A DNA stretch of 51,523 nucleotides, taken from positions 1 through 51,523 of IMG/VR virus record IMGVR_UViG_3300045135_002159; one strand, written 5' to 3'. The notes under the pieces were generated by a model. It was given only the letters and a program-made list of their open reading frames with translations. It was not told where the DNA came from and did no database searches. Source of the DNA: a virus. Numbering within the stretch: the stretch's first letter is position 1; each line of letters begins with the position of its first letter. Below, one piece after another: positions 27,448-43,247 of the stretch. A program made the translations under genes and the position numbers.

Positions 27448-28203
27448 TTATCCTACGAAGAAGTCTGCTGGCATCTCAAAGTCTAGACGGATCTTTTCTC
27501 TTAGCTTTTCAATTTCGTTTGTAGCATCATCGAAAAGTTGTCTACCGTTGAGGGTTACGCCACCAGGTAATTGCATTCCTTCAAACTTAATTAGGTTTGA
27601 TCCCCACTGTTGTTTAATTAGCGCAGTGGTGTATTCTTTTAACCACATATCGTTCCATACCTTAGTATGTGCTGATGGGTTAACTGTCTTCCACGCTTCA
27701 TATACGATATAATCGCCGGCTTGAACATCTTTATCATTGAAGTCGCCGTGGAGATATAAACGATCCATTTTACGAGAATATGTGGTCTGAGGTTCACCGT
27801 TTAATTTCATATCTAAAAGGGAAAGATATTGATTTAACTGTTCGTAATATGCAAGATCACCCGCAAAGTTCTGAAGATCAGCAATATCATTTAGCATCAT
27901 TTGATACTTAATATCAAAGAAGTTAAACGATGTATTAAACGTTGATGAAATACGGAACAGTTTACTTACGTAAATTACATCAGTTGGAACAGTAACGTAC
28001 TCATTCGATACATCACTGTCACCGACCAAATGAGAAATATAAGTTCTATAAGTCGCATCGGAGTGATACTCCTGCCAGTATTGTAAAGCTTCGTCGACAC
28101 GATCCTCTAGCTGATCAATATCAACATTGATCTCAATAACCGGATCACCCAGTCTTCTTAAACAGTAATCAATAAGGCCTTGTCTGCTAGAAGGATTTGC
28201 CAT
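27448..28203 (-). CDS. 13: Neck protein gp13
   Basis: 251 residues (T4: 309). LIDYCLRRLGDPVIEINVD, then DRVDEALQYWQEYHSD and a C-terminal KLREKIRLDFEMPADFFVG-like ending, typical of gp13. Own late promoter at 28224-28231 starts the gp13-gp14-gp15-gp16 unit. Confidence 0.93.
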   Translation of the reverse strand: MANPSSRQGLIDYCLRRLGDPVIEINVDIDQLEDRVDEALQYWQEYHSDATYRTYISHLVGDSDVSNEYVTVPTDVIYVSKLFRISSTFNTSFNFFDIKYQMMLNDIADLQNFAGDLAYYEQLNQYLSLLDMKLNGEPQTTYSRKMDRLYLHGDFNDKDVQAGDYIVYEAWKTVNPSAHTKVWNDMWLKEYTTALIKQQWGSNLIKFEGMQLPGGVTLNGRQLFDDATNEIEKLREKIRLDFEMPADFFVG

Positions 28204-28236: not shown

Positions 28237-30543
28237 TTAGGTGCTAATACCATTAATGGTTTTTAGTGCTGTACCAGCAGAATTGTAGATAGTTAACGAA
28301 GAACCTTGTGTAAGGTTACCATCATGCCACACCTTTCTCCATGTGTTCCATGATCCGCCTACCCCATCCCTGAAGTACAATTCACCCCATGTTGATGTAT
28401 GCGCTGTACCACTTAACTGCCAAGCTGCATAGTTAGTTCCGTTCCAACCTTTTGTTGTTAGTACGCCGGACCAACCCGCACCGCCCTGACTATAAGAGAA
28501 TATAGTCTTAGTAGAATTATCAAGCCAAGAGTCATTTGCGTTAGGCATATAGGTATTGGCCCCAGTAGTACCTGGCACTTGGGCAGAATATCTTACATCC
28601 CAAGACTTTATTCGAGTGACTTCACCATCAATATAACCAGTAACATCTAAATTACCCGAAATCGTGCCACCAGATGTCTTCAAAAGCGTACCGTCGTTGC
28701 CTTCATCCCAAACTTTATTGCCATTTCGTCTCAATTCAGAAGCGTTGTCGAAGTTCATAATAGCGTCGGTAGCGTCATCTATAGCGTAAAGGTGTACGTT
28801 GGTAGTTCCTCGGAAAAGCACGCCTTCACCTGGATCATTGATTTGAAGCTGATTAACCCCAGTAATGTTACCATTACTCATTGCAATGGTACTTGAACTA
28901 ATTGTGCCTGTTATATTAATATTACCAGTCCCGGTAATATCGTTAGAATTTAAATCAAGATTTCCGCCTAACTGTGGGGTAGTATCTTCTACAACATTAG
29001 AGATAGCACTAGCGCCGCCAGTTGACCAACTAAATGAGCCATCCCCATCAGAGATAAGGAATTGACCTGCTGTACCATTACCTGAGACATTTAATTCATT
29101 AGCACCAACTGCATTCGCCGCGATCTGAGCATTAATAGAGGTAGTGCCAGAACCACTTAAATCACCAGATAAAGTAATTGTCTGGTTTCCAGTTAAATAT
29201 GATCCTGCCGGTTGAATTCCTGCTTCAGCTAATGTATTATTAACCCAAGCGCTTCCATTCCATTTTAAAATTTCGCCAGACGTGTTACTTGTAATAGTAG
29301 TATTTGATAAACCGTCTAATGTGTGGTTATGAGAAGTCTGAGAGAAAGAACTTGCCTGAATACCATCCAATGTATCGGCATCAAGACCCGAACCTGAACC
29401 ATCTACTGTTTTTATAAGTGTTAAGATTTCAGAAGCTGTTTGATCGCCAGTTGCTCCTGCTTCGATACCATCCAATTTTGCGCCGTCAGCAGAAACATCA
29501 CGACCATCAAAGGTTTGTCCTGCTGCAAAAGTAATAGCACCGGTCATAGTACCACCAGCAAGTGGTAGTTTAGTACCAATACTGTTTGATACCGTAGTAG
29601 CAAAGTTAGGGTCGTCACCTAATGCTGCAGCAAGTTCATTAAGTGTATCCAGTGTACCAGGTGCTGCATCTACAAGATTGGATACCGCGGTGCTAACAAA
29701 TGCTGTCGTAGCAATCTGGGTTGTATTAGTCCCAGCTATAGCAGTTGGTGCTGCTGGTGTTCCTGTAAATGTTGGGCTAGCCAATGAAGCATAATAACTT
29801 CCATGCTGACCATCTAGTAAATCAGCATCGAGACCGGAAGTAGCACCATCGACAGTCTTAATAGCTGTAAGAATCTCACTTGCGGTTTGATCCGCAGTAG
29901 CGCCTGTCTCGATGCCTGCAAGCTTGGAAGCTTCAGTGGATGTATATCCCTGATAACCAGTTGAATATGTAATAGCCAAAGTACCACTGGATGTAATAGG
30001 TGAACCGGATATAGAAAACCCAGTTGGAACAGTAGCAGCAATGGAAGTCACCGTACCGGTATTTGTTGTATAGCCATTAGGATTTGAAGCTGCATAGTAA
30101 TATGACCCGTGCTGACCGTCTAATAAATCAGCATCAAGCCCGGAAGCAGCACCATCTACAGTTTTGATTGCAGTAAGGATTTCTGAAGCAGTCTGATCTG
30201 CTGTGGCTCCTGATTCAATACCTGCTAATTTAGAAGCTTCAGTCGACGTATATCCCTGATAACCTGCTGAATATGTGATAGCCAAAGTACCACTTGTAGT
30301 AATCGGGCTTCCTGATATTGCAAACCCAGTTGGAACAGTAGTTGCTACTGATGTAACTGTACCAGCATTTGTTGTATAACCAGCACCGTTTGTTAATTGG
30401 TTATTATTTGTTGGAATTGTCGGAGTATTAGTAAAGTTATTATAATCTAAGTAGTGCGAGGCAGCATGCCCGTCAAGTTTCACGGCACCAGTAGAATCTA
30501 TGTGATTATGAACTTGGGATAAGTCAAAGGATCTTGAACTCAT
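28237..30543 (-). CDS. Tail fibre/adhesin with internal repeats
   Basis: 768 residues, Gly/Ser/Thr-rich. A 102-residue repeat occurs twice (residues 58-159 and 160 to about 251), each with GYQGYTSTEASKLAGIE and the DADLLDGQHGSYY motif; TFTGTP, LDTLNELAAALGDDPNF and LPLAGGTMTGAI are phage tail-fibre typical. The C-terminal part has a pyocin-knob-like block (TWGELYFRDG, KVWHDGN). It ends with LTIYNSAGTALKTINGIST, a motif shared with two other proteins here. Likely a receptor-binding fibre. Confidence 0.85.
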   Translation of the reverse strand: MSSRSFDLSQVHNHIDSTGAVKLDGHAASHYLDYNNFTNTPTIPTNNNQLTNGAGYTTNAGTVTSVATTVPTGFAISGSPITTSGTLAITYSAGYQGYTSTEASKLAGIESGATADQTASEILTAIKTVDGAASGLDADLLDGQHGSYYYAASNPNGYTTNTGTVTSIAATVPTGFSISGSPITSSGTLAITYSTGYQGYTSTEASKLAGIETGATADQTASEILTAIKTVDGATSGLDADLLDGQHGSYYASLASPTFTGTPAAPTAIAGTNTTQIATTAFVSTAVSNLVDAAPGTLDTLNELAAALGDDPNFATTVSNSIGTKLPLAGGTMTGAITFAAGQTFDGRDVSADGAKLDGIEAGATGDQTASEILTLIKTVDGSGSGLDADTLDGIQASSFSQTSHNHTLDGLSNTTITSNTSGEILKWNGSAWVNNTLAEAGIQPAGSYLTGNQTITLSGDLSGSGTTSINAQIAANAVGANELNVSGNGTAGQFLISDGDGSFSWSTGGASAISNVVEDTTPQLGGNLDLNSNDITGTGNINITGTISSSTIAMSNGNITGVNQLQINDPGEGVLFRGTTNVHLYAIDDATDAIMNFDNASELRRNGNKVWDEGNDGTLLKTSGGTISGNLDVTGYIDGEVTRIKSWDVRYSAQVPGTTGANTYMPNANDSWLDNSTKTIFSYSQGGAGWSGVLTTKGWNGTNYAAWQLSGTAHTSTWGELYFRDGVGGSWNTWRKVWHDGNLTQGSSLTIYNSAGTALKTINGIST
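29791..30372 (-). repeat. Two direct repeats of about 306 bp within the fibre gene
   Basis: Codes for two 102-residue units (first unit 30067-30372, second 29791-30066 partly). The two copies are similar at DNA level (many silent differences), suggesting duplication with later drift. Confidence 0.7.
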
Positions 30544-30553
30544 TTTCTATACC

Positions 30554-31195
30554 TTATGTTGTCGGGCTGTACATAGTTTTCAGAGCCGTACCAGTAGAAT
30601 CGTAAATTGTTAAAGTCTGAACTGCTGCGAAATTTGAACTAGTAATTGATGCAATATTAAAAAGAGAAAACGCAATTACCTGAAGATCATCACCAGCTGA
30701 TGCGCCACTGTTTAAAACGACGCTAGTACCATTACTAGCAGTATAATCGTCACCCGGTCTTAACACAACACCATTCAATGAAACAATTATGGCATTTACT
30801 GTATATGCTAATACTTCTGCATTGTCATCTGAACCAGTAAATGTAGTTTGCCCACTGGTTGCAGTATATTCGTATGTTTTTAATGTTTGGGTCGTATCTT
30901 CGAAAGATAAAGTGCCAGAGCCATTTGTTTTTAATACTTGACCATTTGTTCCATCGGATGTTGGAAGCGTGAAGTTATTAACAAAGGTTGTTAGGTTTGC
31001 ATCGTACGCTTGAATAGTAGATCCAATCTTACTATCAATAAGATCCGAATCTACAAAATTCTTAATTACGTTTGAGGAATTTTTATAGTAAAGTCTACCA
31101 TCAGCATAGTTGAGGGCAACTTCGCCGTATTCTAGATCACCAGTTCCTGGTGCATTACTAGATACTGAGGATTTTTTAAGTAGGACTTTTGCCAT
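30554..31195 (-). CDS. Virion/fibre-associated protein
   Basis: 213 residues. Starts MAKVLLKKSSVSSNAPGTGD..YGEVALNYADGRLYYKN, a common N-terminal module of phage tail proteins. Middle: QTLKTYEYTATSGQTTFTG and ALAYTV. Ends TIYDSTGTALKTMYSPTT, nearly the same C-terminal motif as the fibre downstream. A late promoter (31260-31267) and a hairpin (31226-31253) precede it. Probable part of fibre or fibre connector. Confidence 0.75.
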   Translation of the reverse strand: MAKVLLKKSSVSSNAPGTGDLEYGEVALNYADGRLYYKNSSNVIKNFVDSDLIDSKIGSTIQAYDANLTTFVNNFTLPTSDGTNGQVLKTNGSGTLSFEDTTQTLKTYEYTATSGQTTFTGSDDNAEVLAYTVNAIIVSLNGVVLRPGDDYTASNGTSVVLNSGASAGDDLQVIAFSLFNIASITSSNFAAVQTLTIYDSTGTALKTMYSPTT

Positions 31196-31225
31196 AGTAA
31201 TTCCTTAAAAAAGGTTTTAGTTTAG

Positions 31226-31253
31226 AGTCTGGGATATAAAAATACCCCAGACT
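31226..31253 (-). terminator. Hairpin upstream of fibre-associated gene
   Basis: Stem AGTCTGGG/CCCAGACT (8 bp, 12-nt loop) between two fibre genes. On the minus strand it is followed by a mixed CTAAACTAAAACCTTTTTT; it may terminate readthrough or lie in the late-transcript leader. Confidence 0.5.
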
Positions 31254-31259
31254 TTCAGT

Positions 31260-31267
31260 TATTTATA
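31260..31267 (-). promoter_or_regulatory. Late promoter (TATAAATA) of fibre-associated gene
   Basis: Exact TATAAATA on the minus strand, 64 nt before the ATG of the 213-residue gene. Confidence 0.7.
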
Positions 31268-31269
31268 AC

Positions 31270-32853
31270 TTAGAATGTGCCACCGTCGATCGTGGCAAGA
31301 ACAACTGCACCAGAGGTAACCGTAAACTCATTTGCATCAAAACTTGCAACACCCTTGTTAGAAGAGCTAGCAAGCTCTGCTGCAAAAGTGATTGTACCAG
31401 CGCCATCGTCATATGTAATGTCGAGGCCTTCGCCTTCGGCAAAAGTGCTGCTAACAAGGTGATCTTCTAGTACTTCTTTCCAATCAACGCCAGCAAACTC
31501 GAGTGATGTAGAACCTGTCATATTCAGGGTCTTGTTCATCTCCCATTCGTCGTTTGCACCGTTGAATGTAAAGGTAGCTTTTGTGCCTGAATAAAGTGCA
31601 CCCCCGATTGTAATACCAGCACCATCTGCTGCTGCAGCGTTACCAGCTGAATCGGCAAGAACCATATTCAGATCATTGATGGAAACTGTAGTCGAGTTAA
31701 CTGTTGTCGTAGTACCTTGTACTGTAAGGCTACCACGGATAATAACGTCACCACCATCAGAATCGATTGGGTTCGGATCAAGATAAAGGATACCCGTCGA
31801 AGATGCAACAGTATTATCAAGGATTCTAATATTATCAACATCAATTTGAGTTAAGCCAGCAAGAGTTGTTGATGTAGCACCTAAAGCAATATTAGTAGAA
31901 CCGATAGTTAAACTCGAGTTAGCGAGTTCAGCGTTAGCGACACCACCATTTTTAATCGTAACTAAACCAGATGAAACCGCAAAGTTATCTGAGCTAAATT
32001 GTGCAACACCTTTTGCTGAGGTAGAAGCATTATCACCAGCAACGGTAACAGTATTATCAGTTACTGTTGTAGTAATACCAGTGCCACCTGTAAAGGTTAG
32101 GGTATCTGAGGAAGTAACAGTATCTGTACCAGTGTCACCAGCAATAGCCAAATCTGTAGAGATTGCTGCAGTGCCTGCTGCTGTTAGGCGACCTTGCTGA
32201 TCAACTGTAAAGGTTGGAATAGCAGTTGAAGAACCGTATGAACCTGGAGTAACTGCTGTATCATCCAGATCAATGGTGATAGTGTTATTGGTAACTGTAG
32301 TTGTAATACCAGTATCACCAGAGAATGTAACAGTCTGTTGACCGGCAACTGCATCAGGTGTACCACCATCTGCTGCTAAAGTGAAGATGGTTGAACCACC
32401 AGCAAACTGGTCATCAACATATTTCTTTGTAGCAGCATCTTGGTCAGCTGTTGGATCAACGACACTTGTAATTTTAGATGTAGCAACGTCTACTGTACCA
32501 GTACCATTCGGGCTAAGTGTTAAGTTACCGTTGGTATCTGTTGTGCTAATAGTGTTGCCGTTGATATCGATATTGTCGACTTTTAAGTTATCGATTTTAC
32601 TCGATGCATCAACGATAATTGCACTGGAAGCTGTAAGCGTACCAGCGACATGGTCGAGCATATTGGTAAAATATTCACCGCCAACTACGACGATTGATGT
32701 TGCGTTACCTGAACCATCGTCACCCTTACCAAAGAACAGGCGATCGCCTGAATTGGCCTGGGTGCCTGTTCCCATTGCATAGGCTATCTCGGCCGTTTTT
32801 AGGGAGCCTGGTGCCGAGGTGCCCGTAGATCTTTTGATTCTAATTACGGCCAT
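31270..32853 (-). CDS. Structural repeat protein (tail fibre-like)
   Basis: 527 residues. Start MAVIRIKRSTGTSAPGSLKTAEIAYA is a common marine-phage tail-fibre start. Contains repeated TVTFSGDTGITTTVTNNTITID-like units and a VDVATSKI..DPTADQDAATKKYVD segment, typical of fibre shafts. C-terminus TSGAVVLATIDGGTF. Beta-rich, Thr/Ser/Gly rich; most likely a long fibre or fibre shaft component. Ends 4 nt before the TATAAATA promoter region. Confidence 0.8.
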   Translation of the reverse strand: MAVIRIKRSTGTSAPGSLKTAEIAYAMGTGTQANSGDRLFFGKGDDGSGNATSIVVVGGEYFTNMLDHVAGTLTASSAIIVDASSKIDNLKVDNIDINGNTISTTDTNGNLTLSPNGTGTVDVATSKITSVVDPTADQDAATKKYVDDQFAGGSTIFTLAADGGTPDAVAGQQTVTFSGDTGITTTVTNNTITIDLDDTAVTPGSYGSSTAIPTFTVDQQGRLTAAGTAAISTDLAIAGDTGTDTVTSSDTLTFTGGTGITTTVTDNTVTVAGDNASTSAKGVAQFSSDNFAVSSGLVTIKNGGVANAELANSSLTIGSTNIALGATSTTLAGLTQIDVDNIRILDNTVASSTGILYLDPNPIDSDGGDVIIRGSLTVQGTTTTVNSTTVSINDLNMVLADSAGNAAAADGAGITIGGALYSGTKATFTFNGANDEWEMNKTLNMTGSTSLEFAGVDWKEVLEDHLVSSTFAEGEGLDITYDDGAGTITFAAELASSSNKGVASFDANEFTVTSGAVVLATIDGGTF

Positions 32854-33125
32854 TAGAAGTTGCCTCCGTTAAATGTAGTATTTGTATTTGTTAATTCAAC
32901 TTTGGATTCAAAGTTTTGTGTTCCATCATTATATACGAGTAGCGCCCCATCGGTCGCGCCTGTGATATCAATTCCTTGTAAACTTCCTAATTGAATATCC
33001 CCGGCGGCAACTCTTCGTACGATTCGAACCGGAGTCCCAACCGTAACTTTCTTAATGGTAGTTTGACTACCGGTAACAGCTGTACGGCTGACGCTGCTTT
33101 GACCTGTAGTAATTCTAATTGCCAT
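32853..33125 (-). CDS. Small virion-associated protein
   Basis: 90 residues, MAIRITTGQSSVSRTAVTGSQTT. The C-terminus FESKVELTNTNTTFNGGNF resembles the ending of the neighbouring 527-residue protein (GG-F end). Basic and beta-rich. It shares a 1-nt overlap with the fibre gene. Possible fibre or baseplate accessory. Confidence 0.7.
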   Translation of the reverse strand: MAIRITTGQSSVSRTAVTGSQTTIKKVTVGTPVRIVRRVAAGDIQLGSLQGIDITGATDGALLVYNDGTQNFESKVELTNTNTTFNGGNF

Positions 33126-33127
33126 TC

Positions 33128-33484
33128 TTACCTCGTGACCGACGGTGTTACTTCAAGATTTCCTTCCAATACTCTTTCAATAATAGTGTTTCCATCACTA
33201 TCATTATAAGAGATCTCTACATCATAAACCCAACGGCCAGGCTTCATAGCATCTGTCTGGGTGTTGGTTAATTCTAAAATAAGTTTTCCGAGGGGTCTAT
33301 TGACGGCCGTGAGGGTCGAAGTAAAGTTTACCGTATTATCACTATCTGCGTTATACGATCTTTTTGCCTTAGCTGCTGCACTGAAACCATTCAGATTTTT
33401 CACAGATCCATCTTTATCGAGTAGTTCTAACTCGATTGCTACATCAGCACCTTGGTCGATAGTGAATTCTTCGAATTGAGCCAT
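33128..33484 (-). CDS. Beta-sandwich virion protein (BppU-like in pattern)
   Basis: 118 residues with acidic start MAQFEEFTIDQGADVAIELEL, then LDKDGSVKNLNGFSAAAKAKRS and KLILELTNTQTDAMKPGRWVYDVEI, an Ig-like or baseplate upper-protein pattern. Common in marine T4-like fibre clusters. Own late promoter (33510-33517). Confidence 0.75.
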   Translation of the reverse strand: MAQFEEFTIDQGADVAIELELLDKDGSVKNLNGFSAAAKAKRSYNADSDNTVNFTSTLTAVNRPLGKLILELTNTQTDAMKPGRWVYDVEISYNDSDGNTIIERVLEGNLEVTPSVTR

Positions 33485-33509
33485 AGTATCCTCTTGAATG
33501 TGTTACCAT

Positions 33510-33517
33510 TATTTATA
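33510..33517 (-). promoter_or_regulatory. Late promoter (TATAAATA) of the 118-residue gene
   Basis: Exact TATAAATA on the minus strand, 26 nt before the ATG of the Ig-like protein, directly after the radical SAM island. Confidence 0.75.
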
Positions 33518-33524
33518 ATACTTT

Positions 33525-34616
33525 TCATTTGAAGATATCGACTAATTCAGGATGAATGTCAAAAATATCAAAGCCTCTAACTTTATTCATAGACTCGGTA
33601 TAAAGGAAAAATCCTTTTATTAACTGAGAACGTCTTGGTTCTGGTGTAGGTGTAATGTTCCAGAGATTCTTAGAGATGTTTTCAGTATTGTGTTCATATT
33701 GTTGCAACAATAGTTCCCTCATCTTATCTGTTTCGATCAGCGCTGGTGACAGATACACGGGTGATATCACTACATTATAGAAATTCTGCGTATAACCGTC
33801 GAACATCTCTTGGGTTTTTCTTAGATTAAAAATATTGTACAAAGAAATACACATATTAATGCTAACCCGTACGCCTAGTCTTTGTTGAAATTCTACGATG
33901 TTGAAATACGTATTCTCGAAATCACCCCCTCGGATCCAATCGTAGGTTTTTCCAATGCCATCCACGCTTGCGCCGATTATAAGATTTTTTAATCTTGAAA
34001 GAGGGTCAAACCATTCTTCAGGAATATGTTGGAAGTTACTTGTGATGATTACTTCGCACTCTGGGTTAGTCTCTGCAACCTTAGTTAAGATCTTTAGATT
34101 GTTCTTATCTGCAAACGGTTCACCGCCTTTAATATTCAAATAGCCGAGGGTAGGAATGACTCTTAAAATTTTCTCTATAGATTCATCAGACAGTGCAGAA
34201 GTTGAATGCTTAGCTTGTGACCAAGCTGGGAACTGACTTTCTATCTTTTTCCATTTGGTGCTAAAATAGCTACTACACATAGCACAGGTTTGGTTACAAA
34301 CATTACTCGTTGTAACTTCAAGATATCGGATATTCAGATCTTCACTTGGTGTATATCGATCGTAGTTGTAGATCTCATCCATCGCACCTTTCTTAACCGA
34401 TGCGGAACATCTCCAGCATTCTTTGATACCATCAATACCATCGCTTGACATTTTGTTTCGAAGCTGTTCATATTGCTTATCCCGAAAGAATTCGGTAAGA
34501 TCTTCAACGTCAGTGATTCTAGTATTAAACTGTCGTCTATCCCCTGTGTTACAGCACATTGTGATCAGGCCGCCTGGGTCGATAGTTAATCCAACAAAAG
34601 GTGCTTTACATAACAT
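33525..34616 (-). CDS. Radical SAM enzyme with N-terminal SPASM/twitch-like cluster
   Basis: 363 residues. Radical SAM core CxxxCxxC at Cys107, Cys111, Cys114 (SNVCNQTCAMC). An N-terminal Cys cluster (Cys3 in MLCKAPF, Cys21-Cys22, Cys67/Cys70) fits a twitch/SPASM auxiliary Fe-S site. GGEPF (about 160-165) is the SAM-binding motif. Substrate is not readable; SPASM enzymes often modify peptides or proteins, others sugars. No clear Shine-Dalgarno before the ATG at 34616; the gap upstream holds the plus-strand G-run promoter. Last gene of the island. Confidence 0.85.
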   Translation of the reverse strand: MLCKAPFVGLTIDPGGLITMCCNTGDRRQFNTRITDVEDLTEFFRDKQYEQLRNKMSSDGIDGIKECWRCSASVKKGAMDEIYNYDRYTPSEDLNIRYLEVTTSNVCNQTCAMCSSYFSTKWKKIESQFPAWSQAKHSTSALSDESIEKILRVIPTLGYLNIKGGEPFADKNNLKILTKVAETNPECEVIITSNFQHIPEEWFDPLSRLKNLIIGASVDGIGKTYDWIRGGDFENTYFNIVEFQQRLGVRVSINMCISLYNIFNLRKTQEMFDGYTQNFYNVVISPVYLSPALIETDKMRELLLQQYEHNTENISKNLWNITPTPEPRRSQLIKGFFLYTESMNKVRGFDIFDIHPELVDIFK

Positions 34617-34618
34617 TG

Positions 34619-34651
34619 GGGGGTTTACAATCCTATTTTTTACGGTATAAT
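34619..34651 (+). promoter_or_regulatory. Plus-strand promoter with G-run, no evident gene
   Basis: GGGGGG directly before TTTACA (34624-34629), 16-bp spacer, TATAAT (34646-34651), in the 44-bp gap between two minus-strand radical SAM genes. Same layout as the promoter at 10535. Transcription would go against the 34661-35719 gene; no plus-strand ORF with a ribosome site is seen, so an antisense RNA or a relic is possible. Confidence 0.6.
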
Positions 34652-34660
34652 ATAATAGGC

Positions 34661-35719
34661 TTATTCGGAAGGGGTTGATACATAACTATCCAAGAGCCAA
34701 TTCTTAATCTGGTTATGTACTAAGTGCTCTGCCACATGGAGGTTATTCTTTTTTCCTCTAATCGGATTACGTTTATATTTCTCTAGTCTCTCGGAAAGAC
34801 CTTCGTAGATCTCTTTCAGTTGATCACTTGGAAGATTCCAGATAGCCCATTCTTTCGGATATAGAATAGTGTTGTACCAGAGATTAACACCATGACGATC
34901 GGCAAACTCTACGAAGTCAATCATCTCAAACCAATTATTACGCATGGGGTTAACCATTACCGATAGTTCTTTTTCATCGCCACAATACTGCTTATAGATT
35001 TCAAAGTTCTTAAACACGTCGTCAAGGTTACCGTTAATACGTATTTCCGAATATCTTTGGTGATCGAGACTATCTATGCTGACATTAATATGTACGTTAT
35101 TCTGCGTAAGGATTTTCTTTGCTCTCTTATGATACACCGTACCGTTCGTAGCCATATTGATCTTTAAGTCAGGATTTACCTCTGCAACCATATCGCAGAT
35201 ATCGAGAACAATCTTCTGCGCAAATGGTTCGCCGCCGTTGAATCTCATTTCTTTTAAATGAGGAACAAACTCTTTTAGTTCTTCTACGAACTTATCGGTG
35301 TATACTTGAGGCAGTGGGGGTAAGCCTTCCCTATTCTTACGAATACCTGAGCTTAATTCACCGGAACACATTACACATTCCAGATTACACTGGTTGCTTA
35401 ATTCTAGTTCCATAAGGGAAGGATATTGATTTACCGGATATTCTTGATAAGCTTTAGCAAGTGGCCAGACTTCATTCTCGATCTCAGTCTCACACTCTTT
35501 ACACCTTCCGATAAACTGACACTTCTTAAGTGCATCACGATACATCTGAAACTTGTCGCCGAACCAGATATCCTTGATCGATCTTTCTTCTGACCACTGA
35601 TCACACATACCAGGCAGTTTCCAGCAAGGACTGACTTTACCTCTTACCGTAAAATACATATTGTTAAAAGGAGCATTACAGGGTGTGTCCACCCCATAAA
35701 GCGTTTTTACTTTATTCAT
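34661..35719 (-). CDS. Radical SAM enzyme with N-terminal SPASM/twitch-like cluster
   Basis: 352 residues. Core cluster Cys111, Cys115, Cys118 (SNQCNLECVMC); GGEPF motif around residue 162. N-terminal auxiliary cysteines: Cys14, Cys32, Cys39, then Cys67, Cys73, Cys76. Shares general layout with the two other complete enzymes in the island, so they are paralogs. The gene upstream overlaps by 8 nt. The reaction is unknown. Confidence 0.87.
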   Translation of the reverse strand: MNKVKTLYGVDTPCNAPFNNMYFTVRGKVSPCWKLPGMCDQWSEERSIKDIWFGDKFQMYRDALKKCQFIGRCKECETEIENEVWPLAKAYQEYPVNQYPSLMELELSNQCNLECVMCSGELSSGIRKNREGLPPLPQVYTDKFVEELKEFVPHLKEMRFNGGEPFAQKIVLDICDMVAEVNPDLKINMATNGTVYHKRAKKILTQNNVHINVSIDSLDHQRYSEIRINGNLDDVFKNFEIYKQYCGDEKELSVMVNPMRNNWFEMIDFVEFADRHGVNLWYNTILYPKEWAIWNLPSDQLKEIYEGLSERLEKYKRNPIRGKKNNLHVAEHLVHNQIKNWLLDSYVSTPSE

Positions 35720-36878
35720 TATACATTACCAATGCTGCCCATTCTGGAAATACCTCGGCGAAGCTTTCATTTCGAATCTTATCAAGGTGACGGATTTGAT
35801 CGTGGAATTTAGCGGTAAGATCCTCGTCATCACTTCTTATATATTTAATAATATTCTGATATTCTTTACGGTCCTTATACTTCTCTTCAATCTCGTCCTT
35901 GATCAAGGGATGTAGCTTTCTAGGAGAAAGATATGCTGGCTCATATACGAATCCATAACTCACAAATGGAGTTAGCTTCCTGAATTCTTCCATTGCTTCA
36001 TCAACATACCAAACATTGTAGTTATTAACGGTACAATAGATCTCGATCTTTACCCCAGGGAGTTTCTCTTTTGCTTTAATAATATTCTTTCTGATAAGCT
36101 CCCAGTTAGCACCGGATCTATGATAATACAACCGATCACCAATGTCATCCACACTGAATGCGACACTTACCCCTCGATATTGTTTTAGCATATTAACAAT
36201 ATCATCCCCCATAAACATACCATTTGTGTTAAAGTGTAGATCGATCTTTGATGCATAACCTAGCTCGATCATTAAACGAAGCATATCTTTATTCTCTTTA
36301 CCCATAAATGGTTCGCCGCCGGTAAAGGTAATCCTATCGATATGTGGCAACCACTTTAAAAAGATCTCTTCGTCATCTGTCTCCAGGAACTTATTCTTAT
36401 GCCAATAGTCGTCTGGTCTAAACTCGGGATTATGTTTTTCTTCCTCTTTTTGGATCAAGCTGGAAGTCATTGGACTACACATACGGCATTTTAGATTGCA
36501 GACATTAGACAGCTTCAGATCCAAGTAGAAGGGTGATTCGGATACGGTAGATGTAAAATCATATCTTTCAACTTGTTCTGGATAAAGATCGTACAGATAT
36601 GAATTCAATACTCTTCTGTAACTGAAAAGACCTGCTTTTTCTTCATTCCAGCATTGACGACACTCAATCGGCTTTTTACCGTCGATGAAAGCCTGTCTGA
36701 GTCTCTGCATCTCAGGACCATTCCAGGATTCGGCCAAACGCTGACTTCTCATATCAGTCAGTTTATAATCTGTTTGCAGATCGCTTTGTTCGTATTTACA
36801 ACAAGGCCGAATAGTTCCATCTATGTTCTGAGAGATAGAAGTCCATGGGGCTGTACAAAAGGTATTATTTTTATCCAT
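35712..36878 (-). CDS. Radical SAM enzyme with N-terminal SPASM/twitch-like cluster
   Basis: 388 residues from ATG 36878 (a GTG 9 nt earlier gives 391). Start TFCTAPWTSISQNIDGTIRP and CC is the twitch-domain signature (Cys8, Cys26-27, then Cys73/Cys76); core CxxxCxxC at Cys127, Cys131, Cys134 (SNVCNLKCRMC); GGEPF follows. Its ATG overlaps the stop of the SPASM fragment gene (ATGGATAA), and its end overlaps the 352-residue gene. Confidence 0.87.
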   Translation of the reverse strand: MDKNNTFCTAPWTSISQNIDGTIRPCCKYEQSDLQTDYKLTDMRSQRLAESWNGPEMQRLRQAFIDGKKPIECRQCWNEEKAGLFSYRRVLNSYLYDLYPEQVERYDFTSTVSESPFYLDLKLSNVCNLKCRMCSPMTSSLIQKEEEKHNPEFRPDDYWHKNKFLETDDEEIFLKWLPHIDRITFTGGEPFMGKENKDMLRLMIELGYASKIDLHFNTNGMFMGDDIVNMLKQYRGVSVAFSVDDIGDRLYYHRSGANWELIRKNIIKAKEKLPGVKIEIYCTVNNYNVWYVDEAMEEFRKLTPFVSYGFVYEPAYLSPRKLHPLIKDEIEEKYKDRKEYQNIIKYIRSDDEDLTAKFHDQIRHLDKIRNESFAEVFPEWAALVMYNE

Positions 36879-37203
36879 TTTTATCACACATCATTACGCA
36901 AATCCTATGCGGGTTATTACCAGTCCATGAGTTAGGTAAGGTTTTAGTAAACCACTCATGATTTAATATATCATCCAGAGAGTGATTATTGATATTTAGC
37001 TCATCTTCATGCTTCCAGTATTCTTGCATTACCGGATTGACGATATCATCAACACCACGCGCAATCAGATCAGGGTCGTTCCATTTGCCATTCTGTTTAA
37101 ATTTAAAACCTTGATTTGCAAGATAACAGCAAGGCCAAACCTGACCATCCGGGTTTACGAGAAACTTATTCTCTTTTGCCCATATACATTCTATACACGC
37201 CAT
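36871..37203 (-). CDS. SPASM-like fragment, C-terminal part of a split radical SAM enzyme
   Basis: 110 residues, no CxxxCxxC core. MACIECIWAKENKFLVNPDG, then VWPCCYLANQ with Cys25-Cys26, and Cys102/Cys106 near the end: the Cys pattern of an auxiliary Fe-S (SPASM) domain. Its ATG overlaps the TGA of the radical SAM core gene upstream (TGATG), so it is one nt out of frame. Most likely the second half of one enzyme, separated by a frameshift or made as two chains. Confidence 0.75.
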   Translation of the reverse strand: MACIECIWAKENKFLVNPDGQVWPCCYLANQGFKFKQNGKWNDPDLIARGVDDIVNPVMQEYWKHEDELNINNHSLDDILNHEWFTKTLPNSWTGNNPHRICVMMCDKNG

Positions 37204-38000
37204 CAGAAATTCCTATCCTTATGCGATTTTTCATTACTCGTATCTTTATTGTAGATCATTTGGTTGCCACGTTCTTCCCACCACTTATGATCTCTATGTG
37301 GCGCTGGAAGTACGAATCTCGGATCATCAATACCTAACGAGGTTTCTTCTAACTGAAACTGTTTACCGTCTTCATCAGTATATTCTTCAATAGGATCTTT
37401 GTTAAATCTATTTGATGGCTGTACAAGATGGTCAGTCATACCAAGTTCGTTGTAACACATATCCAATATATCTTCAATATAATCTTCATTATGCTTAAAT
37501 ACAATTACATGGGCAAATGCATTCCCACCCGCTGCAGTAAATGACTGAATATTTAATTTGAGTTTCTCGAAGTCTACCTTACGTCGATAGTGTGAATGCA
37601 TCTCTTGGTTAATACCTTCAACGTCGAAGATTACTTGCATTCGATCTCTACCGATTAATCCTAACTCCCACCAGAAGTCGTCGTCTCGGAATCCACCATT
37701 TGTATTCAATTGAATCCAACAATCACTATTATCGATAATATACTTACAGATCTCGAATATATCTTTGGTCATAATGGGATCCCCCCATGTACCACAGATC
37801 TCGAATCTTTCAATCATATTCATAACTTTAGGTGGATAAGCATTCTTGAATTGCTTAAGATCCCATCTGATCAATGGAAGCCAGCCAACCTTACCTAATC
37901 CGTTCGGATCTGTTCTATGACACTGTGGACAACCTGCATTACAATATGTACTAAGGTCAATCCAAGCAACTAGCTTTTCTTTTAAATCATAAATGCTCAT
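37203..38000 (-). CDS. Radical SAM core protein, SPASM part split off
   Basis: 265 residues. CxxxCxxC at Cys20, Cys24, Cys27 (STYCNAGCPQCHRTDPNGLG). EICGTWGDP takes the GGEP position. Lacks the C-terminal auxiliary cysteines, which are in the next ORF. The C-terminal tail (about 220-265) is polar and lacks an evident domain. Ends TGA overlapping the start of the SPASM fragment; start ATG at 38000 overlaps the glycosyltransferase gene by 4 nt. Confidence 0.82.
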   Translation of the reverse strand: MSIYDLKEKLVAWIDLSTYCNAGCPQCHRTDPNGLGKVGWLPLIRWDLKQFKNAYPPKVMNMIERFEICGTWGDPIMTKDIFEICKYIIDNSDCWIQLNTNGGFRDDDFWWELGLIGRDRMQVIFDVEGINQEMHSHYRRKVDFEKLKLNIQSFTAAGGNAFAHVIVFKHNEDYIEDILDMCYNELGMTDHLVQPSNRFNKDPIEEYTDEDGKQFQLEETSLGIDDPRFVLPAPHRDHKWWEERGNQMIYNKDTSNEKSHKDRNF

Positions 38001-38674
38001 GAGAAATTCTTATAGTTTTTCCATTCGTGAGGTTTATTCGTACTGCGGGTAAAGTGTACAATCTTTATATCTTCATGGAAGTCGTTACCGTCCCACAAAC
38101 GATTGCCCGTGATTTCGAAATATTTATCCTCGATATTTTTAGTGCTAGAACGGCTATCGCTGATCCATCGGGTAAACCAAGCATCTGGCATAAGCTTTAG
38201 ATCCATACCATACAAGCTATCTTGGACAAACATAAACTCACCATTTACTGGTCCAATAGTTAAACCAGCTTTGATATAATAGTTTGTATAGTATGGAATA
38301 TCACTCATAAATTTTTCGTAGATGTGCTTTGTTCTACTAGGCCAGAACTTATAGAAACCGCCGCTCATCTTAAATGGCGTACCGTTAAAGTTCCACCAGT
38401 ATGGAATAGAAACAAATTCGTTCTTTGCACATGGATAGTTAATTACTTCGTGGTAATCGTGAATAAGAAGCTTATCGATATCCATTACAATTACAGGTTC
38501 ATCGATATCCATATTGAATACCTGTAGCTTATTCCATTGAAGTGGAACCCACTTATGAAAAGGTTCACGAATCCAATGGACGTCGTGACCTTCTAACTTA
38601 CTATTGATATAATCTTCATATTCAGGACCGTACTTAGTTCCGATCCTTACACAGAATACTTTCAAAGGAACCAT
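37997..38674 (-). CDS. Glycosyltransferase-like protein
   Basis: 225 residues. A metal/sugar-nucleotide motif Asp65-Ile-Asp67 in VIVMDIDKLL; N-terminal KVFCVRIGTKYG and QWNKLQVF recur in the protein at 40129-40767, so these are paralogs. Small GT-A-like fold expected. Ending includes GNRLWDGNDFHEDIKIVHFT, a typical C-terminal His motif of such enzymes. Acceptor unknown; with neighbours it may decorate a virion or cell-surface glycan. Confidence 0.7.
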   Translation of the reverse strand: MVPLKVFCVRIGTKYGPEYEDYINSKLEGHDVHWIREPFHKWVPLQWNKLQVFNMDIDEPVIVMDIDKLLIHDYHEVINYPCAKNEFVSIPYWWNFNGTPFKMSGGFYKFWPSRTKHIYEKFMSDIPYYTNYYIKAGLTIGPVNGEFMFVQDSLYGMDLKLMPDAWFTRWISDSRSSTKNIEDKYFEITGNRLWDGNDFHEDIKIVHFTRSTNKPHEWKNYKNFS

Positions 38675-39534
38675 TCCATCTTTTTGTTGATACAGTGATA
38701 CATCTTTGCATTCTTATCGCATGCATTCCTATTTCTTTTTTTCTCGTCTACGATATAATGCCAATCGCCGTTTAAGTATTCAATGGCGATATCTTTTGAA
38801 TGGACCAAATAAGAAAATAAAGTTTCATTATCGTAACCAAATACACGGCGGATGTTATATGGATACATCGAGTCTTCATCTTTTTTAAGCTCAGTCATAA
38901 GATCTAGATTCTCTCTGAAGTTATCGAAGTAACCTAGATTTTTAACAACATCTGCAGATGCAACCATAATGCCGGTATTGAACACATCATTGTCAGGTTC
39001 GTGACCTTCTTCTAAAAGCATTGCATGTGCATTCCAATACTTCGTAGACGGATTACGAATACACGTATTATAATTCTTCGGGTCTACTTTCTTGCCCCAC
39101 TCAGCAAGGGCATTAGAATGCGCGCAACCAAACTTATTATTAATATCATGAGCTTCGAATATATCGTCAGTTGTATTTGGAATTACGTCAAAGTCGAGGT
39201 AACAAATAGCATCGTAGCTATCTGCTAACTTCCTCATTGTCCAATGCTTATAGAAGTTTACGATATCGTAATGGGAAACTTCCGGGTAATCAGACTCGAA
39301 CATCTCTACAAACTCTTGGTATTTTAAATCCCACTTATAGAGTTTGTAATCTGCACCAATTGCTTCTGCGTACTCTTTATGCCTTGCAACGATCGCATCT
39401 TGATTCTGTAACAATGCTATCTTAGTCTTAAGACTTTTATCAGTTTTAATCTGAACACCATTTTCAAACCAGCCAGGATTATCTAACTTATCATCTGGGA
39501 TGTTAACAAAAATGCTGTAGACTATCTTTTTCAT
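38662..39534 (-). CDS. Glycosyltransferase-like protein
   Basis: 290 residues. Asp114-Phe-Asp116 in ICYLDFDVIPN is a DxD motif; ARHKEYAEAIGADYKLYKWD matches the N-terminal part of capsular/galactosyl-type GT-A enzymes. Middle FGCAHSNALAEWGKK... and GIMVAS. Overlaps the genes on both sides by 13 and 4 nt. Substrate unknown. Confidence 0.75.
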   Translation of the reverse strand: MKKIVYSIFVNIPDDKLDNPGWFENGVQIKTDKSLKTKIALLQNQDAIVARHKEYAEAIGADYKLYKWDLKYQEFVEMFESDYPEVSHYDIVNFYKHWTMRKLADSYDAICYLDFDVIPNTTDDIFEAHDINNKFGCAHSNALAEWGKKVDPKNYNTCIRNPSTKYWNAHAMLLEEGHEPDNDVFNTGIMVASADVVKNLGYFDNFRENLDLMTELKKDEDSMYPYNIRRVFGYDNETLFSYLVHSKDIAIEYLNGDWHYIVDEKKRNRNACDKNAKMYHCINKKMEWFL

Positions 39535-40166
39535 TTTCCAATTACCATATGTCTATTAAAGTCGCCAAGATCAAGTGTTCCGGTATAAGCAATATATTCT
39601 AATCCCAGTGAATCGGCAAACGTCTTTGCACCAGGCCAACAATTAATATGTGCATCGAGTAGTGTGTAATCATTTGTTTGAAAACAGATCCAAGTATCAG
39701 CTGGTTTTCTTTTAATGATATTAACAAGATCTTCTTGTTCCATATGTTCGCAACTTGTGTTAATGATTGCTGTATATGGCGAGTAATCTATTTCACTATT
39801 TACATCTAATGTTTCGAACGCAATATCTTGATCGTAAAATAACTTATAGCCATAGTAATCACACATCGGATCCATATCACTTGAGGTAATATTCATACTA
39901 GGGTTTGGCCATAGCTTTCTAAGTTGATATGCCATCATACCATACCAACCACCAACAACTAGAATATTACCATCCTGGTGGTTATAGTGCTTATAGAATT
40001 CTTTAGCTAACCACTCTTTACCTTCCCAGTGGTTCTTATCTACGGAATGTACAATATCTTTAATACGATAGAGGTCGTCAACCCCATACATCGACTCATT
40101 ATAGATTTCTTCCGAAAGCTTAAGGGATCTATATAAGATCGTCGATTCCAACGTCAATCTCCTCAA
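39531..40166 (-). CDS. Methyltransferase-like protein (class I fold)
   Basis: Up to 211 residues. The N-terminal glycine-rich loop of a SAM-binding Rossmann fold is seen at VVGGWYGMMAYQL (about 70-82) followed by SSDMDP. The start is uncertain: the longest frame begins with TTG at 40166, a GAGGAG suits a TTG at about 40151, and the first ATG is at 40091. It overlaps the next glycosyltransferase by 38 nt. Substrate unknown; a sugar or small-molecule O/N-methylation is possible. Confidence 0.6.
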   Translation of the reverse strand: MRRLTLESTILYRSLKLSEEIYNESMYGVDDLYRIKDIVHSVDKNHWEGKEWLAKEFYKHYNHQDGNILVVGGWYGMMAYQLRKLWPNPSMNITSSDMDPMCDYYGYKLFYDQDIAFETLDVNSEIDYSPYTAIINTSCEHMEQEDLVNIIKRKPADTWICFQTNDYTLLDAHINCWPGAKTFADSLGLEYIAYTGTLDLGDFNRHMVIGK

Positions 40167-40767
40167 ATGTTAAAACGCAAGCCTCATAGTCTACTTCACG
40201 CTGGTATTTCCACGATTGGATATATTTCTTCTCGAAGACGAAATATTTTAAATCTTCATGTACGATGTACCGATCAATACCTACGTATTTACGCATAAAG
40301 TAATCACGGAATCCGCTGTTAAAATGATTCCATAATTCTTGCATATGAGGAAGAGAAGCATCCCACGTCATTACTGAACTATTAATGCGTACATCATAGT
40401 TAGCTAGTCGATCGTATACCTTTGCGTACTTCCAGTGTGAATGCACAAGAGTAAGCTGTTCCCAATCTCTTGGGTCTTCATGTATGAGGGGATCTTTTAG
40501 GATTTTTACATCAAGGTCGAAATAGTAAGTCTTGCCTTCTAATCCCATAGCAGGATCAAATAAACGTAACTTATTCCAAACACCTTTTAACGTAGGACGA
40601 CCAAGAGGAAGAATGATATTAACTTCTGGTATGATTCCCTCTGGGTCATCGGTGTAACAGAAGAACTTAAATTCTGCTTTTGTTAATCTTTTAATATCAT
40701 TATAAAGCTTGTTTACGAAGTCGGCACTATACTTAGTGCCAAACTTCACGCAAATCACATTATACAT
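40129..40767 (-). CDS. Glycosyltransferase-like protein
   Basis: 212 residues. MYNVICVKFGTKYSADFVNKL, VWNKLRLFDPAMG, then DxD Asp84-Leu-Asp86 (YYFDLDVKIL). Clear paralog of the 225-residue protein (shared CVxxGTKY and WNKLxxF). Later HEDLKYFVFEKKYIQSWKY. First enzyme gene of the island, starting at the stop of the 208-residue gene. Likely glycan-modifying; specificity unknown. Confidence 0.7.
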   Translation of the reverse strand: MYNVICVKFGTKYSADFVNKLYNDIKRLTKAEFKFFCYTDDPEGIIPEVNIILPLGRPTLKGVWNKLRLFDPAMGLEGKTYYFDLDVKILKDPLIHEDPRDWEQLTLVHSHWKYAKVYDRLANYDVRINSSVMTWDASLPHMQELWNHFNSGFRDYFMRKYVGIDRYIVHEDLKYFVFEKKYIQSWKYQREVDYEACVLTFEEIDVGIDDLI

Positions 40768-41393
40768 TAAGAAGCTCCTTTGGCCTCTCCGTAGAATTTA
40801 AGTAGTTCGAAAAGTGTTTTAGATTTACGGATCGAAAGCTTTAAAGCTTTATCTTTTGACTTACCAATTAGTGGATCTTCCAATATACCCACTTTAAAGT
40901 TAAACACGAAATCATTGTCTTCGTTTCTTTTAGTCAAGTAATTGAAAATGTCTTTCGGAGACATATCTTCAATTCCTAAAGTTCGATTGCTTAAAAATTC
41001 ACTCTGATATTTTGAAGCCAGATCACTTTTCATCGTGTCTTTATAATTATCTACTTCTTCATAGGCCTTTTTAGTTCTATCGTCTTGATATCTGTCAATC
41101 TCTTCATAGGCCTTTTTAATCTTTTCGGCTTCTAATTCCCAGAGTTCGTTTACTTTTTGGATAACAGCATCATTAAAAACTTTAGCGGCTAAATTAACTT
41201 CTTCCTGGGAGTTCTTTTCTATTTCTTCTAAAGTAATTTCTTTTAGAAGATCATTGAAGTCGTCAGAAGTAAAATCGACTTCCATTTGATATGGAACTAG
41301 TTTTCCGGTTTCTTCATACAAAATCTCGATGATCATGTTGTTTGGATAATCAAGAAACTTTGCCGTAACTACCTTATCACTAAAAATAGCCAT
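40767..41393 (-). CDS. Coiled-coil protein next to fibre genes
   Basis: 208 residues. N-terminal beta-rich part (MAIFSDKVVTAKFLDYPNNM) then a charged helical part with a 15-residue repeat (KKAYEEIDRYQDDRT / KKAYEEVDNYKDT, about residues 93-120). C-terminal KALKLSIRKSKTLFELLKFY. A structural or fibre-associated protein is likely; similar proteins lie beside fibre genes in marine T4-like phages. No enzyme motif. Confidence 0.65.
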   Translation of the reverse strand: MAIFSDKVVTAKFLDYPNNMIIEILYEETGKLVPYQMEVDFTSDDFNDLLKEITLEEIEKNSQEEVNLAAKVFNDAVIQKVNELWELEAEKIKKAYEEIDRYQDDRTKKAYEEVDNYKDTMKSDLASKYQSEFLSNRTLGIEDMSPKDIFNYLTKRNEDNDFVFNFKVGILEDPLIGKSKDKALKLSIRKSKTLFELLKFYGEAKGAS

Positions 41394-41420
41394 TATATTT
41401 CATCCTCTAGAATAATAAAA

Positions 41421-42353
41421 TTAAGTTTGAGTGATCCTCAGATAATATGTTGAGATCGTAGTAGGAGACGCATTATAGTCTGGGGTTTCCTGTGCACGAT
41501 AATCGTTGGTATTTACCTGGTAAGTTAGATACTTAGAACCAGTCAGACGAGTATCAAGCATGGCTGTACCACGGTTATTACCTGTGCCGTTAATACTATA
41601 ACGAATACGAGTTCCAGTTACAGCACTAGCAGCATGACGAATATTTGTTTGCAAAGCTGTTTGGAATGTCGCTTTTGCTATTTGACGAAGATTAGTTCCG
41701 CTTTTAAGATAACATATCGGTAATTCAAAAGCTGCCTCAGCTGCACCATTAACTCTATAAAGATAATAATTCGTAATTGTCGTAGGCTGGTCTCGTGTTT
41801 CCAGCAATCCTGCAGCGGTATAAGCAGCAGCATCTGCTCGGGTATCGGTATAAACTGGGGTTGCTGATACTCGTGTAGCTCCACTAACCGAAGTTGCAGA
41901 TGATATAAAGTATGTTCCAGCTTGTGCGGTAGTAGTCGAGCTAGTAGTCATTGTATCAATAGCTGGCTTAATGAAAGTATCTAGAAAGTCAGTTTGAGTC
42001 ATTTCTCTTAGGTCACTACCATCAAAATATAGCGGATAAGAATATGTAGCATCAGACCAATACGATGTAGATGCTGCAGTTTCATCAATCTTATCATAAG
42101 AAACGGATACGTTTGAAACGTTCTGTAATTCTGCTGTGGTAGCAAATCTGTCCACTCTTGTTTGTCCGGTACCAGCTTGTTGTCTAGTATCAGTCATACC
42201 AGTAAGACTTCCACCTGAAGCGACCACCGATAGAGTAACCGCCGGATTTGCAGCATATTGACGAATCGCTTCGGTCCGAAGATCAGCAATCTCACCCGAA
42301 GACATTTCTTTTAAATCACTACCAGCTAATTTTAAAGGTGTTCTAACTGCCAT
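41421..42353 (-). CDS. Virion protein with three internal repeats
   Basis: 310 residues. A short unit recurs three times: PLKLAGSDLKEMSSGEIADL, PLYFDGSDLREMTQTDFLDTF and PICYLKSGTNLRQIAKATFQ (about residues 5, 106 and 216). Beta/Thr-rich between. Probably a fibre or baseplate accessory with repeated domains. Adjacent to the 227-residue fibre gene with a 1-nt overlap. Confidence 0.7.
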   Translation of the reverse strand: MAVRTPLKLAGSDLKEMSSGEIADLRTEAIRQYAANPAVTLSVVASGGSLTGMTDTRQQAGTGQTRVDRFATTAELQNVSNVSVSYDKIDETAASTSYWSDATYSYPLYFDGSDLREMTQTDFLDTFIKPAIDTMTTSSTTTAQAGTYFISSATSVSGATRVSATPVYTDTRADAAAYTAAGLLETRDQPTTITNYYLYRVNGAAEAAFELPICYLKSGTNLRQIAKATFQTALQTNIRHAASAVTGTRIRYSINGTGNNRGTAMLDTRLTGSKYLTYQVNTNDYRAQETPDYNASPTTISTYYLRITQT

Positions 42354-43036
42354 TATAAACTCCCAGCAGCATAAAGCGTTCTTAAAGCTGTTCCTGCGCT
42401 ATCATATATTATAAATGTTTCTACTGATTTTAGTGCTACACTGCCGCTAGTGATAGCAATACCATTACCCGCACTAAAGTGTGCTCTTACTTCAGATGCA
42501 CTTGGACCTGTGTATGTAATAACACCTGAGGTTGAATTGTATGAAAGCGATCCATCACCACCAGCATCTGTTACAGAGATTTTACTACGAATCGTAGCAT
42601 CTGAAATACTAAATTGACCTGATGCATATGTTGTATTAGTACCGGCACTGAAATGTGCTCTAACTTCCGTTGCACTTGGGCCTGTATACGTAATAACACC
42701 GCTTGTAGAATTATATGTTAATGAACCGTCGCCGCCAGCATCTGTTACTGAGATATGAGCTCTTGCTTCAGTTGCTGAAGGACCGGTGTAAGTGATTACG
42801 CCAGTTGACGAATTATATGTTAATGAACCGTCGCCGCCAGCATCTGTTACAGAAATTTTACTTCTAAAATCGGTATCGCTATCAATTAGATTATAGATTG
42901 CAGTAAGGATATTGACAACATCACTCTCACCGGCAATATCTAAATCAGTTACCGAACCTACCCCAGCAGAAAGTTCATTAAATTTAGATACTAATTGAAC
43001 GAAGGTATCTGTTACATTAATTGTTACTTGCGCCAT
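42353..43036 (-). CDS. Fibre protein with three 34-residue repeats
   Basis: 227 residues. ISVTDAGGDGSLTYNS...GVITYTGPSATE(V/A)RAH occurs at 61-94, 95-128 and 153-186. This repeat is frequent in marine phage fibres. C-terminus FIIYDSAGTALRTLYAAGSL carries the motif shared with two other fibre proteins. Receptor contact or fibre shaft. Confidence 0.8.
   Translation of the reverse strand: MAQVTINVTDTFVQLVSKFNELSAGVGSVTDLDIAGESDVVNILTAIYNLIDSDTDFRSKISVTDAGGDGSLTYNSSTGVITYTGPSATEARAHISVTDAGGDGSLTYNSTSGVITYTGPSATEVRAHFSAGTNTTYASGQFSISDATIRSKISVTDAGGDGSLSYNSTSGVITYTGPSASEVRAHFSAGNGIAITSGSVALKSVETFIIYDSAGTALRTLYAAGSL
42479..42856 (-). repeat. Three repeats of 102 bp in the fibre gene
   Basis: Units of 34 codons (42755-42856, 42653-42754, 42479-42580), the first two adjacent and the third after a 24-residue spacer. 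Copies differ mostly at silent positions. Confidence 0.75.
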
Positions 43037-43037
43037 T

Positions 43038-43247
43038 TTAGCTCTTCTCTATTAGCTGCGTGAGGAGGCTCTTAATTTCACTCATATCATTTTCTAATTT
43101 ATCCAGCCTCGCCTTTTCTTTTAGCTTAGCTGCTCTTAAGATTTGCCTCTTTTCCTTTTCATCACTATTTATACTAATTATGGCGCCAGATACTTTATCA
43201 CGTACTAGATCTTTATGTCCTTCAACCGGAATATATCTATCACTCAT
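43038..43247 (-). CDS. Small coiled-coil virion protein
   Basis: 69 residues: beta N-terminal MSDRYIPVEGHKDLVRDKVSGAIISI, then helical KEKARLDKLENDMSEIKSLLTQLIEKS. Such short proteins precede fibre genes in marine T4-like clusters. An internal TATAAATA (43166-43173) could drive the genes downstream; its position inside a coding region makes it doubtful. Confidence 0.75.
   Translation of the reverse strand: MSDRYIPVEGHKDLVRDKVSGAIISINSDEKEKRQILRAAKLKEKARLDKLENDMSEIKSLLTQLIEKS

Follow-up and report, generated by a model that had tools for sequence, protein, structure and literature searches.

Why should three dissimilar genes of one uncultured marine phage end on nearly the same twenty or so residues? 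The question arises from IMG/VR virus record IMGVR_UViG_3300045135_002159, a 51.5 kb stretch (51,523 nucleotides; 'the window', within which all positions are counted) whose gene order is T4-like and whose terminase has its nearest relative, among 50,697 phage records, in phage C48C1 (72%; Kyanoviridae according to the record's taxonomy). A first-pass annotation had noticed the pattern IY[DN]S[AT]GTAL[KR]T at the C-termini encoded by the genes at 28237, 30554 and 42353, and the motif, here called the tag, does lie within the last about 20 residues of each. These are the only three motif-bearing proteins in the window, all encoded on the minus strand; a looser protein pattern found no further open reading frame (ORF) of the window with the motif, and a search with the back-translated IY[DN]S.GTAL[KR]T recovered these three sites alone, while 100 dinucleotide-preserving shuffles gave none. 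The added remark that the rest of the proteins differ is nearly right, but the 42353 and 30554 proteins are weakly similar outside the tag (33% over residues 42–223, 24.7 bits). That all three are virion proteins, as the annotation took them to be, would follow from PHROG matches that are strong to tail-fibre families for the 28237 gene (E = 7e-61), weak for the 30554 gene (4e-8) and only weak for the 42353 gene; the Pfam matches of ten window proteins all fell under the curated cut-offs.

A degenerate DNA pattern for IY[DN]S.GTAL[KR]T, which included no stop codon, matched 37 stretches in 2.9 million viral contigs. The motif is C-terminal in 34 of them, with four to seven residues before the stop (typically ...IYNSAGTALKTLYGAGS-stop); two matches are internal (L006, L033), and the remaining one (L011) could be assigned to no ORF. 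Several of the 34 come from near-identical contigs, and 20 distinct tags stand besides the window's three. The same pattern met only three stretches in 84,980 bacterial and archaeal genomes, none C-terminal, the one that lies within an ORF being 446 residues from its end. A profile of 20 tags (variants including LLIKDVNGTTLKTIHGAGA and LQILNSSGTVVKTLYGAGA) was also run over 11,664 ORFs; its distinct matches of at least 20 bits numbered 43, all of them C-terminal and none internal. The motif core was likewise C-terminal in 17 cases and internal in none in 217 loci not obtained via motif scans, part of which came from protein queries whose probe peptides held tag letters. Scanning the phage and its relatives, as had been suggested, confirms the original observation and strongly extends it: the tag is more general than was first seen. 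Short tag peptides searched by tblastn against the 50,697 phage records gave nothing or one weak match (Mosig, below), the best match of tag profile A1 to PDB chains was at chance level (E 1.5, unrelated proteins), and the literature searched yielded, as judged by titles and abstract openings, no description of a shared C-terminal fibre motif.

Tagged fibres occupy two loci, both of which lie in T4-like 'host-recognition' islands. Locus 1 denotes the gene flanked by p69 (phrog_473) and p310; locus 2 is made up of whichever fibre gene or genes come last ahead of the head-tail adaptor Ad2. The tagged bodies range from 128 to 1556 residues and are often unrelated; the end is kept. Three tags per record are found in the window, in contig 3300045135_000745 (G001) and in L148, and two in G004, G005, G007, G009 and L123.

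Codons were compared in 17 tags of seven genomes. Identical tag residues share a codon in 48 of 143 cases (34%) within genomes and in 472 of 1249 (38%) between genomes, and 38% is expected from the codon usage of the window. Agreement within genomes being no better than chance, no tag is a recent copy of another, and it is selection at the protein level that keeps them; a role as DNA or RNA elements is unlikely. Gene conversion between tags is ruled out by the same comparison. As a measure of coevolution, amino acid identity between tags is 0.73 within genomes and 0.68 between them (permutation p 0.011), a weak difference with relatedness uncontrolled. The class-A alignment has the turn glycine in every tag (20/20) and I (19), the T of KT (19) and K (18) in nearly all, whereas natural tags show substitutions at Y, N, S and the T of GT, as would suit a hairpin. 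The sequence IYDxxGxxV also resembles hairpins known from secreted proteins of bacteria.

The gene directly behind the locus-1 fibre nearly always encodes p310; in the window the p310 start shares one base with the tag-A gene's stop codon. The family comprises 55 ORFs, 51 of which have an upstream ORF; among the 31 distinct upstream tails, 28 carry the tag (three of these only at 6–12 bits), one (L196) has the tag plus about 20 extra residues and two are tandem p310 copies. The L196 fibre (8067–8558; tag FKVFNSTGTVLRKLYAP) is perhaps a frameshift or read-through variant. Three short contigs (L226, L229, L246) have a tagged fibre with p310 at locus 2. Tag and p310 agree in 29 of 32 records, both being present in 12 and neither in 17; the tag stands alone in two (G003, G019) and p310 in one (G025). 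The G003 sequence starts within the adjacent methyltransferase gene, and G019, a 34.9 kb fragment, has just 8 kb before its locus-2 tag, so these two have probably lost locus 1; the p310 of G025 is diverged, and the fibre upstream of it ends in a diverged tag, FSIKDSVGTIILGGYLLSTDSDVTIP. Seven further records divide into one with both (G030), five with neither and one with a diverged p310 (G034), where the preceding fibre ends LLTVKNEAGTIVLTGYFLTTNSDIGIA and does not match the profile. Among the 50,697 phage records, p310 has a match at E 0.01 in Pelagibacter phage Mosig EXVC030M alone (46%). There too the product of the gene before the p310 homologue, QOI69062, ends VTLQILNSSGTVVKTLYGAGA; Mosig differs in having one tag found in its whole genome, and QOI69062 and the p310 homologue are annotated as hypothetical proteins.

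The p310 protein consists of three homologous repeats (hhalign probability 94.3% for r1–r3 and 74.2% for r1–r2). Its AlphaFold2 model is confident [predicted local distance difference test (pLDDT) 94.2, predicted template-modelling score (pTM) 0.88], with helices at 19–35, 120–135 and 227–244, about 100 residues apart. Foldseek against PDB and BFVD returned nothing at E 0.001 or better and VIA-align 2 no convincing relative (best Z 3.4, the perforin-2 P2 domain), although such absence of a relative proves nothing; the p310 profile against PDB chains gave chance matches only, with no relation to gp38 by sequence. Some relatives in the p310 superfamily carry long glycine-and-aromatic repeats (FTGSFTGFFTG, NYAGNYAR) and reach 823 residues (L071 1014–2951, L094 810–3281, L056 2464–3489); a 3347-residue protein of phage C48C1 has glycine-and-aromatic repeats too and ends alike.

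The explanation we favour, with confidence a shade under even, is that the tag is a hairpin that closes a trimeric fibre and seats p310, much as gp37 and gp38 are paired in T-even phages. The tag would be a C-terminal β-hairpin made of a strand L-x-I-Y, a turn D/N-S-x-G, a strand T-A-L-K-T-L-Y and a short G-A-G-S end, and it would close the distal end of trimeric tail fibres. So closed, the end could form the seat for a fibre-tip protein, the likeliest partner in this phage being p310, the product of the gene immediately after that of the tag-A fibre. One tandem repeat of p310 could pair with each of the three fibre chains, in the way that a single S16 gp38 sits on a gp37 trimer, and, the seat being common to several fibres of a virion, one p310 might suffice for them all. 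The AlphaFold2 model of the 42353 protein places strands at 201–211 and 217–226, over the tag; the modelled hairpin merits modest confidence and the modelled fold of p310 high confidence. According to PMC3004832, fibrous proteins that form trimers require a chaperone module in order to fold, which can be a small domain of the same chain or a protein of its own, and T4 gp38 may gather the C-termini of gp37; in S16 one gp38 binds the gp37 trimer via three symmetry-equivalent pockets (PMC6851490). It is these precedents, the need for a chaperone and the predicted strands that lead us to read the tag as a fibre-closing hairpin and seat for p310. Trimerisation, binding of p310 and its staying in the virion as an adhesin or leaving as a chaperone we infer; a tip protein is preferred to a chaperone. 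The first-pass suggestion, a tag for assembly or for docking to one shared partner, gains from the strict C-terminal position, from selection at the protein level, from the up to three tagged fibres per genome and from an adjoining candidate, while the binding itself stays presumptive.

Many marine phage fibres have a shorter, type-2 end, ...R-I-x-I-Y-[DN]-x-x-G-T-L-L-N-stop. The form ...IYDSAGTLLN-stop stands on many unrelated fibre bodies of marine viral contigs (L278–L396, e.g. L325, L294). At least 120 stretches matched a stop-anchored type-2 pattern, the C-terminal position in that scan being given by construction as the pattern contained the stop codon; the end is present in 77 of 80 loci inspected, with 50 distinct tails, and an independent count from which motif-fetched loci were excluded placed it at the exact end in 12 cases and internally in none. 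In L200, a close relative of the window (adaptor 91% identical), it replaces the long tag at locus 2. The 40 distinct tails of p69-anchored locus-1 genes, read by eye, comprise 29 of the long type or a variant of it, eight of the short type and three of neither, many of these loci having been obtained via tag or p310 queries. The proteins behind the short-type locus-1 fibres and behind two long-type variants show a relation to p310: hhalign gives three groups of them 92.9, 93.4 and 96.0%, and all nine controls less than 1%. A common fold element in phages that lack the partner had been named as the finding that would overturn the docking idea, and half of this is seen, in that the type-2 end is widespread in contigs without p310 proper. 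We would go further only tentatively: it is conceivable, but on balance doubtful, that marine T4-like phages share a plug-and-socket standard, in which a C-terminal socket of 20 residues on several unrelated fibres takes a single exchangeable three-repeat tip of the p310 superfamily, shafts and tips are swapped independently, and the shorter ends are alternative sockets that pair at locus 1 with other branches of that superfamily.

As partner of the tag, p310 is weakly favoured by its adjacency, its repeat number and a partial Mantel test over 28 triples (tag with p310 given p69, r 0.28, p 0.025; tag with p69 given p310, r 0.12, p 0.15), in which the p values are marginal and one triple (L196) has a mis-registered tag. 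Several further observations weigh against a hairpin that seats p310. The model of the 42353 protein is poor overall (pLDDT 64.3, pTM 0.27), and the r2–r3 similarity within p310 is weak (hhalign 10.7%). Tags B and C have no adjoining p310 in the window, and downstream of 89 distinct type-2 ORFs a p310-like start was found five times, other genes 79 times and the contig end five times. The survey was non-random, most loci having been obtained by tag, p310 or neighbour queries. The GT2 glycosyltransferase gene, moreover, gives a table identical to that of p310 across the 32 records (both 12, tag only 2, GT2 only 1, neither 17), so that co-occurrence does not single out p310; the Fisher p of 5e-6, the same for either gene, comes from records that are neither random nor independent.

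The GT2 count (12 of 14 tag-bearing against one of 18 other records) also speaks for another reading, raised by the first-pass annotation, that enzymes encoded nearby carry out a modification, with the tag as their recognition or acceptor site. The class-A alignment has no invariant acceptor residue; its best candidates are the T of KT (19/20) and K (18/20), Y, N, S and the T of GT being replaceable, and the alternating hydrophobic residues with an invariant turn glycine suit a fold better than an acceptor. Radical S-adenosylmethionine (SAM) enzymes are disfavoured as the partner, their gene being absent from five of 14 tag-bearing records and present in four of 18 tagless ones (both 9, neither 14). 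GT8-type enzymes of such islands, moreover, are read in PMC7029224 as enzymes of host lipopolysaccharide. Modification is left unsupported by these data apart from GT2, which co-occurs as p310 does, and we consider it very unlikely. Still less credible is mere homology, by which the tags would be functionless leftovers of fibre duplication or of recombination hot-spots: fibre islands do recombine and neighbouring fibres share modules, but bodies are replaced while the tag is kept, always C-terminally (43 distinct, 0 internal), and codon agreement within genomes is at chance level.

Two other readings remain. The tag may act as a foldon-like cap that, like the foldon of T4 fibritin, trimerises and registers the fibre alone and binds no partner, p310 being a neighbour with another job. 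A short C-terminal hairpin is indeed predicted, the gp13-like adaptor gene comes immediately after locus 2, the place of wac in T4, and tags B and C occur without an adjoining p310, the type-2 end without p310 proper. Against it stand the strict adjacency of p310, which also accompanies a tagged fibre at locus 2 in three contigs, the absence of a sequence match to any PDB chain, and the conserved G-A-G-S end, which would seem to exceed what a hairpin needs. We hold such a self-sufficient cap to be unlikely. Alternatively a chaperone of fibre folding, either p310 or the phrog_3304 homologue, could use the tag as a handle by which to bring three C-termini together before leaving, as proposed for T4 gp38 and gp37. 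The position of p310 directly behind the fibre suits this, as does Pam3 gp25, three copies of which clasp the distal parts of a fibre trimer (3:3; PMC9608196). No match of p310 to such chaperones was found by sequence or among Foldseek's best PDB chains, a weak argument, and the relatives with long glycine-and-aromatic repeats look structural; a departing chaperone seems to us distinctly improbable. The hairpin that seats p310 as a fibre tip remains the reading we prefer.

Positions of the tags, the fibre genes and their neighbours in the window
Feature	Positions	Strand	Description
Tag A	42356..42421	-	ETFIIYDSAGTALRTLYAAGSL, final 22 residues (206-227) of the locus-1 fibre
Locus-1 fibre gene	42353..43036	-	227 residues; N-terminus conserved, body variable and repetitive, tag C-terminal
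Tag B	30557..30619	-	QTLTIYDSTGTALKTMYSPTT, residues 193-213 of the 30554 gene product
Locus-2 fibre gene B	30554..31195	-	213 residues
Tag C	28240..28302	-	SSLTIYNSAGTALKTINGIST, residues 748-768 of the 28237 gene product
Locus-2 fibre gene C	28237..30543	-	768 residues; tail-fibre PHROGs; directly before the head-tail adaptor gene
p310	41421..42353	-	Three-repeat protein, candidate tip protein or fibre chaperone
p69	43038..43247	-	phrog_473 virion structural protein; fixed gene before the locus-1 fibre
p208	40767..41393	-	Conserved gene behind p310
Island between the tag loci	33525..40767	-	Glycosyltransferase-like, methyltransferase-like and radical-SAM-like genes
Fibre-assembly protein homologue	33128..33484	-	phrog_3304 'L-shaped tail fiber protein assembly', E 1e-15
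Head-tail adaptor Ad2 homologue	27448..28203	-	Fixed gene behind locus 2

The gene names in the island were assigned from sequence features. Several radical-SAM-like genes and a short cysteine-containing companion, p110, lie at 33525–38000, and their number and type differ among relatives. Two genes close to locus 2 have a second C-terminal signature, [DN]GG-x-[FY]-stop (32853–33125, NGGNF; 31270–32853, IDGGTF); in the 217 loci not obtained from motif scans it forms the exact end of 45 distinct tails and occurs elsewhere 53 times. Elsewhere in the window, a 1700-residue protein of the baseplate region (44852–49954) contains two stretches that look intein-like by eye (SCFTAETMV... and SCFVAGTEI..., each ending VHNK), and a small HNH-like ORF, also recognised by eye (MHHIIPRHAGGSDDKNNLVKL..., 24766–25281), overlaps the start of the terminase gene and is a possible homing endonuclease.

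Few genes are harder to annotate than the fibre genes of ocean phages, whose bodies diverge until no likeness is left. With a strictly C-terminal tag, fibre ends can be told from the letters alone and the fibres of one virion grouped. The tag also points to a candidate host-recognition protein, p310, which is unnamed in the records examined and whose confident model lacks a close counterpart in the PDB. Were the socket model true, it would explain the separate exchange of shafts and tips and would provide a compact C-terminal module with a testable role in fibre assembly.

The island between the tag loci resembles the pelagimyophage 'host recognition cluster' of PMC7029224, with tail fibres, glycosyltransferases and radical-SAM cassettes between VrlC and gp14; the portion of that paper used here describes no C-terminal motif, and 'C-terminal' has 0 occurrences in its text. 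The foldon of T4 fibritin (wac), encoded beside a gp13-like gene, is a C-terminal β-hairpin unit, and a short unit of this kind is predicted here with modest confidence (residues 201–226); the tag differs from the foldon in having no sequence match to it (tag profile against PDB chains, best E 1.5) and in standing at a second locus as well. Gene 38 directly follows gene 37 in T-even phages, and the candidate tip gene p310 is likewise directly downstream of the locus-1 fibre, although not of the fibres with tags B and C. In T2 and S16 a separate protein caps the C-terminal end of the trimeric fibre through threefold-like contacts (PMC6851490, PMC12892980), the arrangement proposed here for p310. 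Unlike gp38, whose glycine-rich motifs form a polyglycine sandwich, the p310 of the window has no glycine run longer than GG; no sequence relation between the two was detected, and the gp38 fold is not among the listed Foldseek and VIA-align 2 matches of p310. Whereas T-even phages have this arrangement on one fibre type, here the same end is carried by several different fibres.

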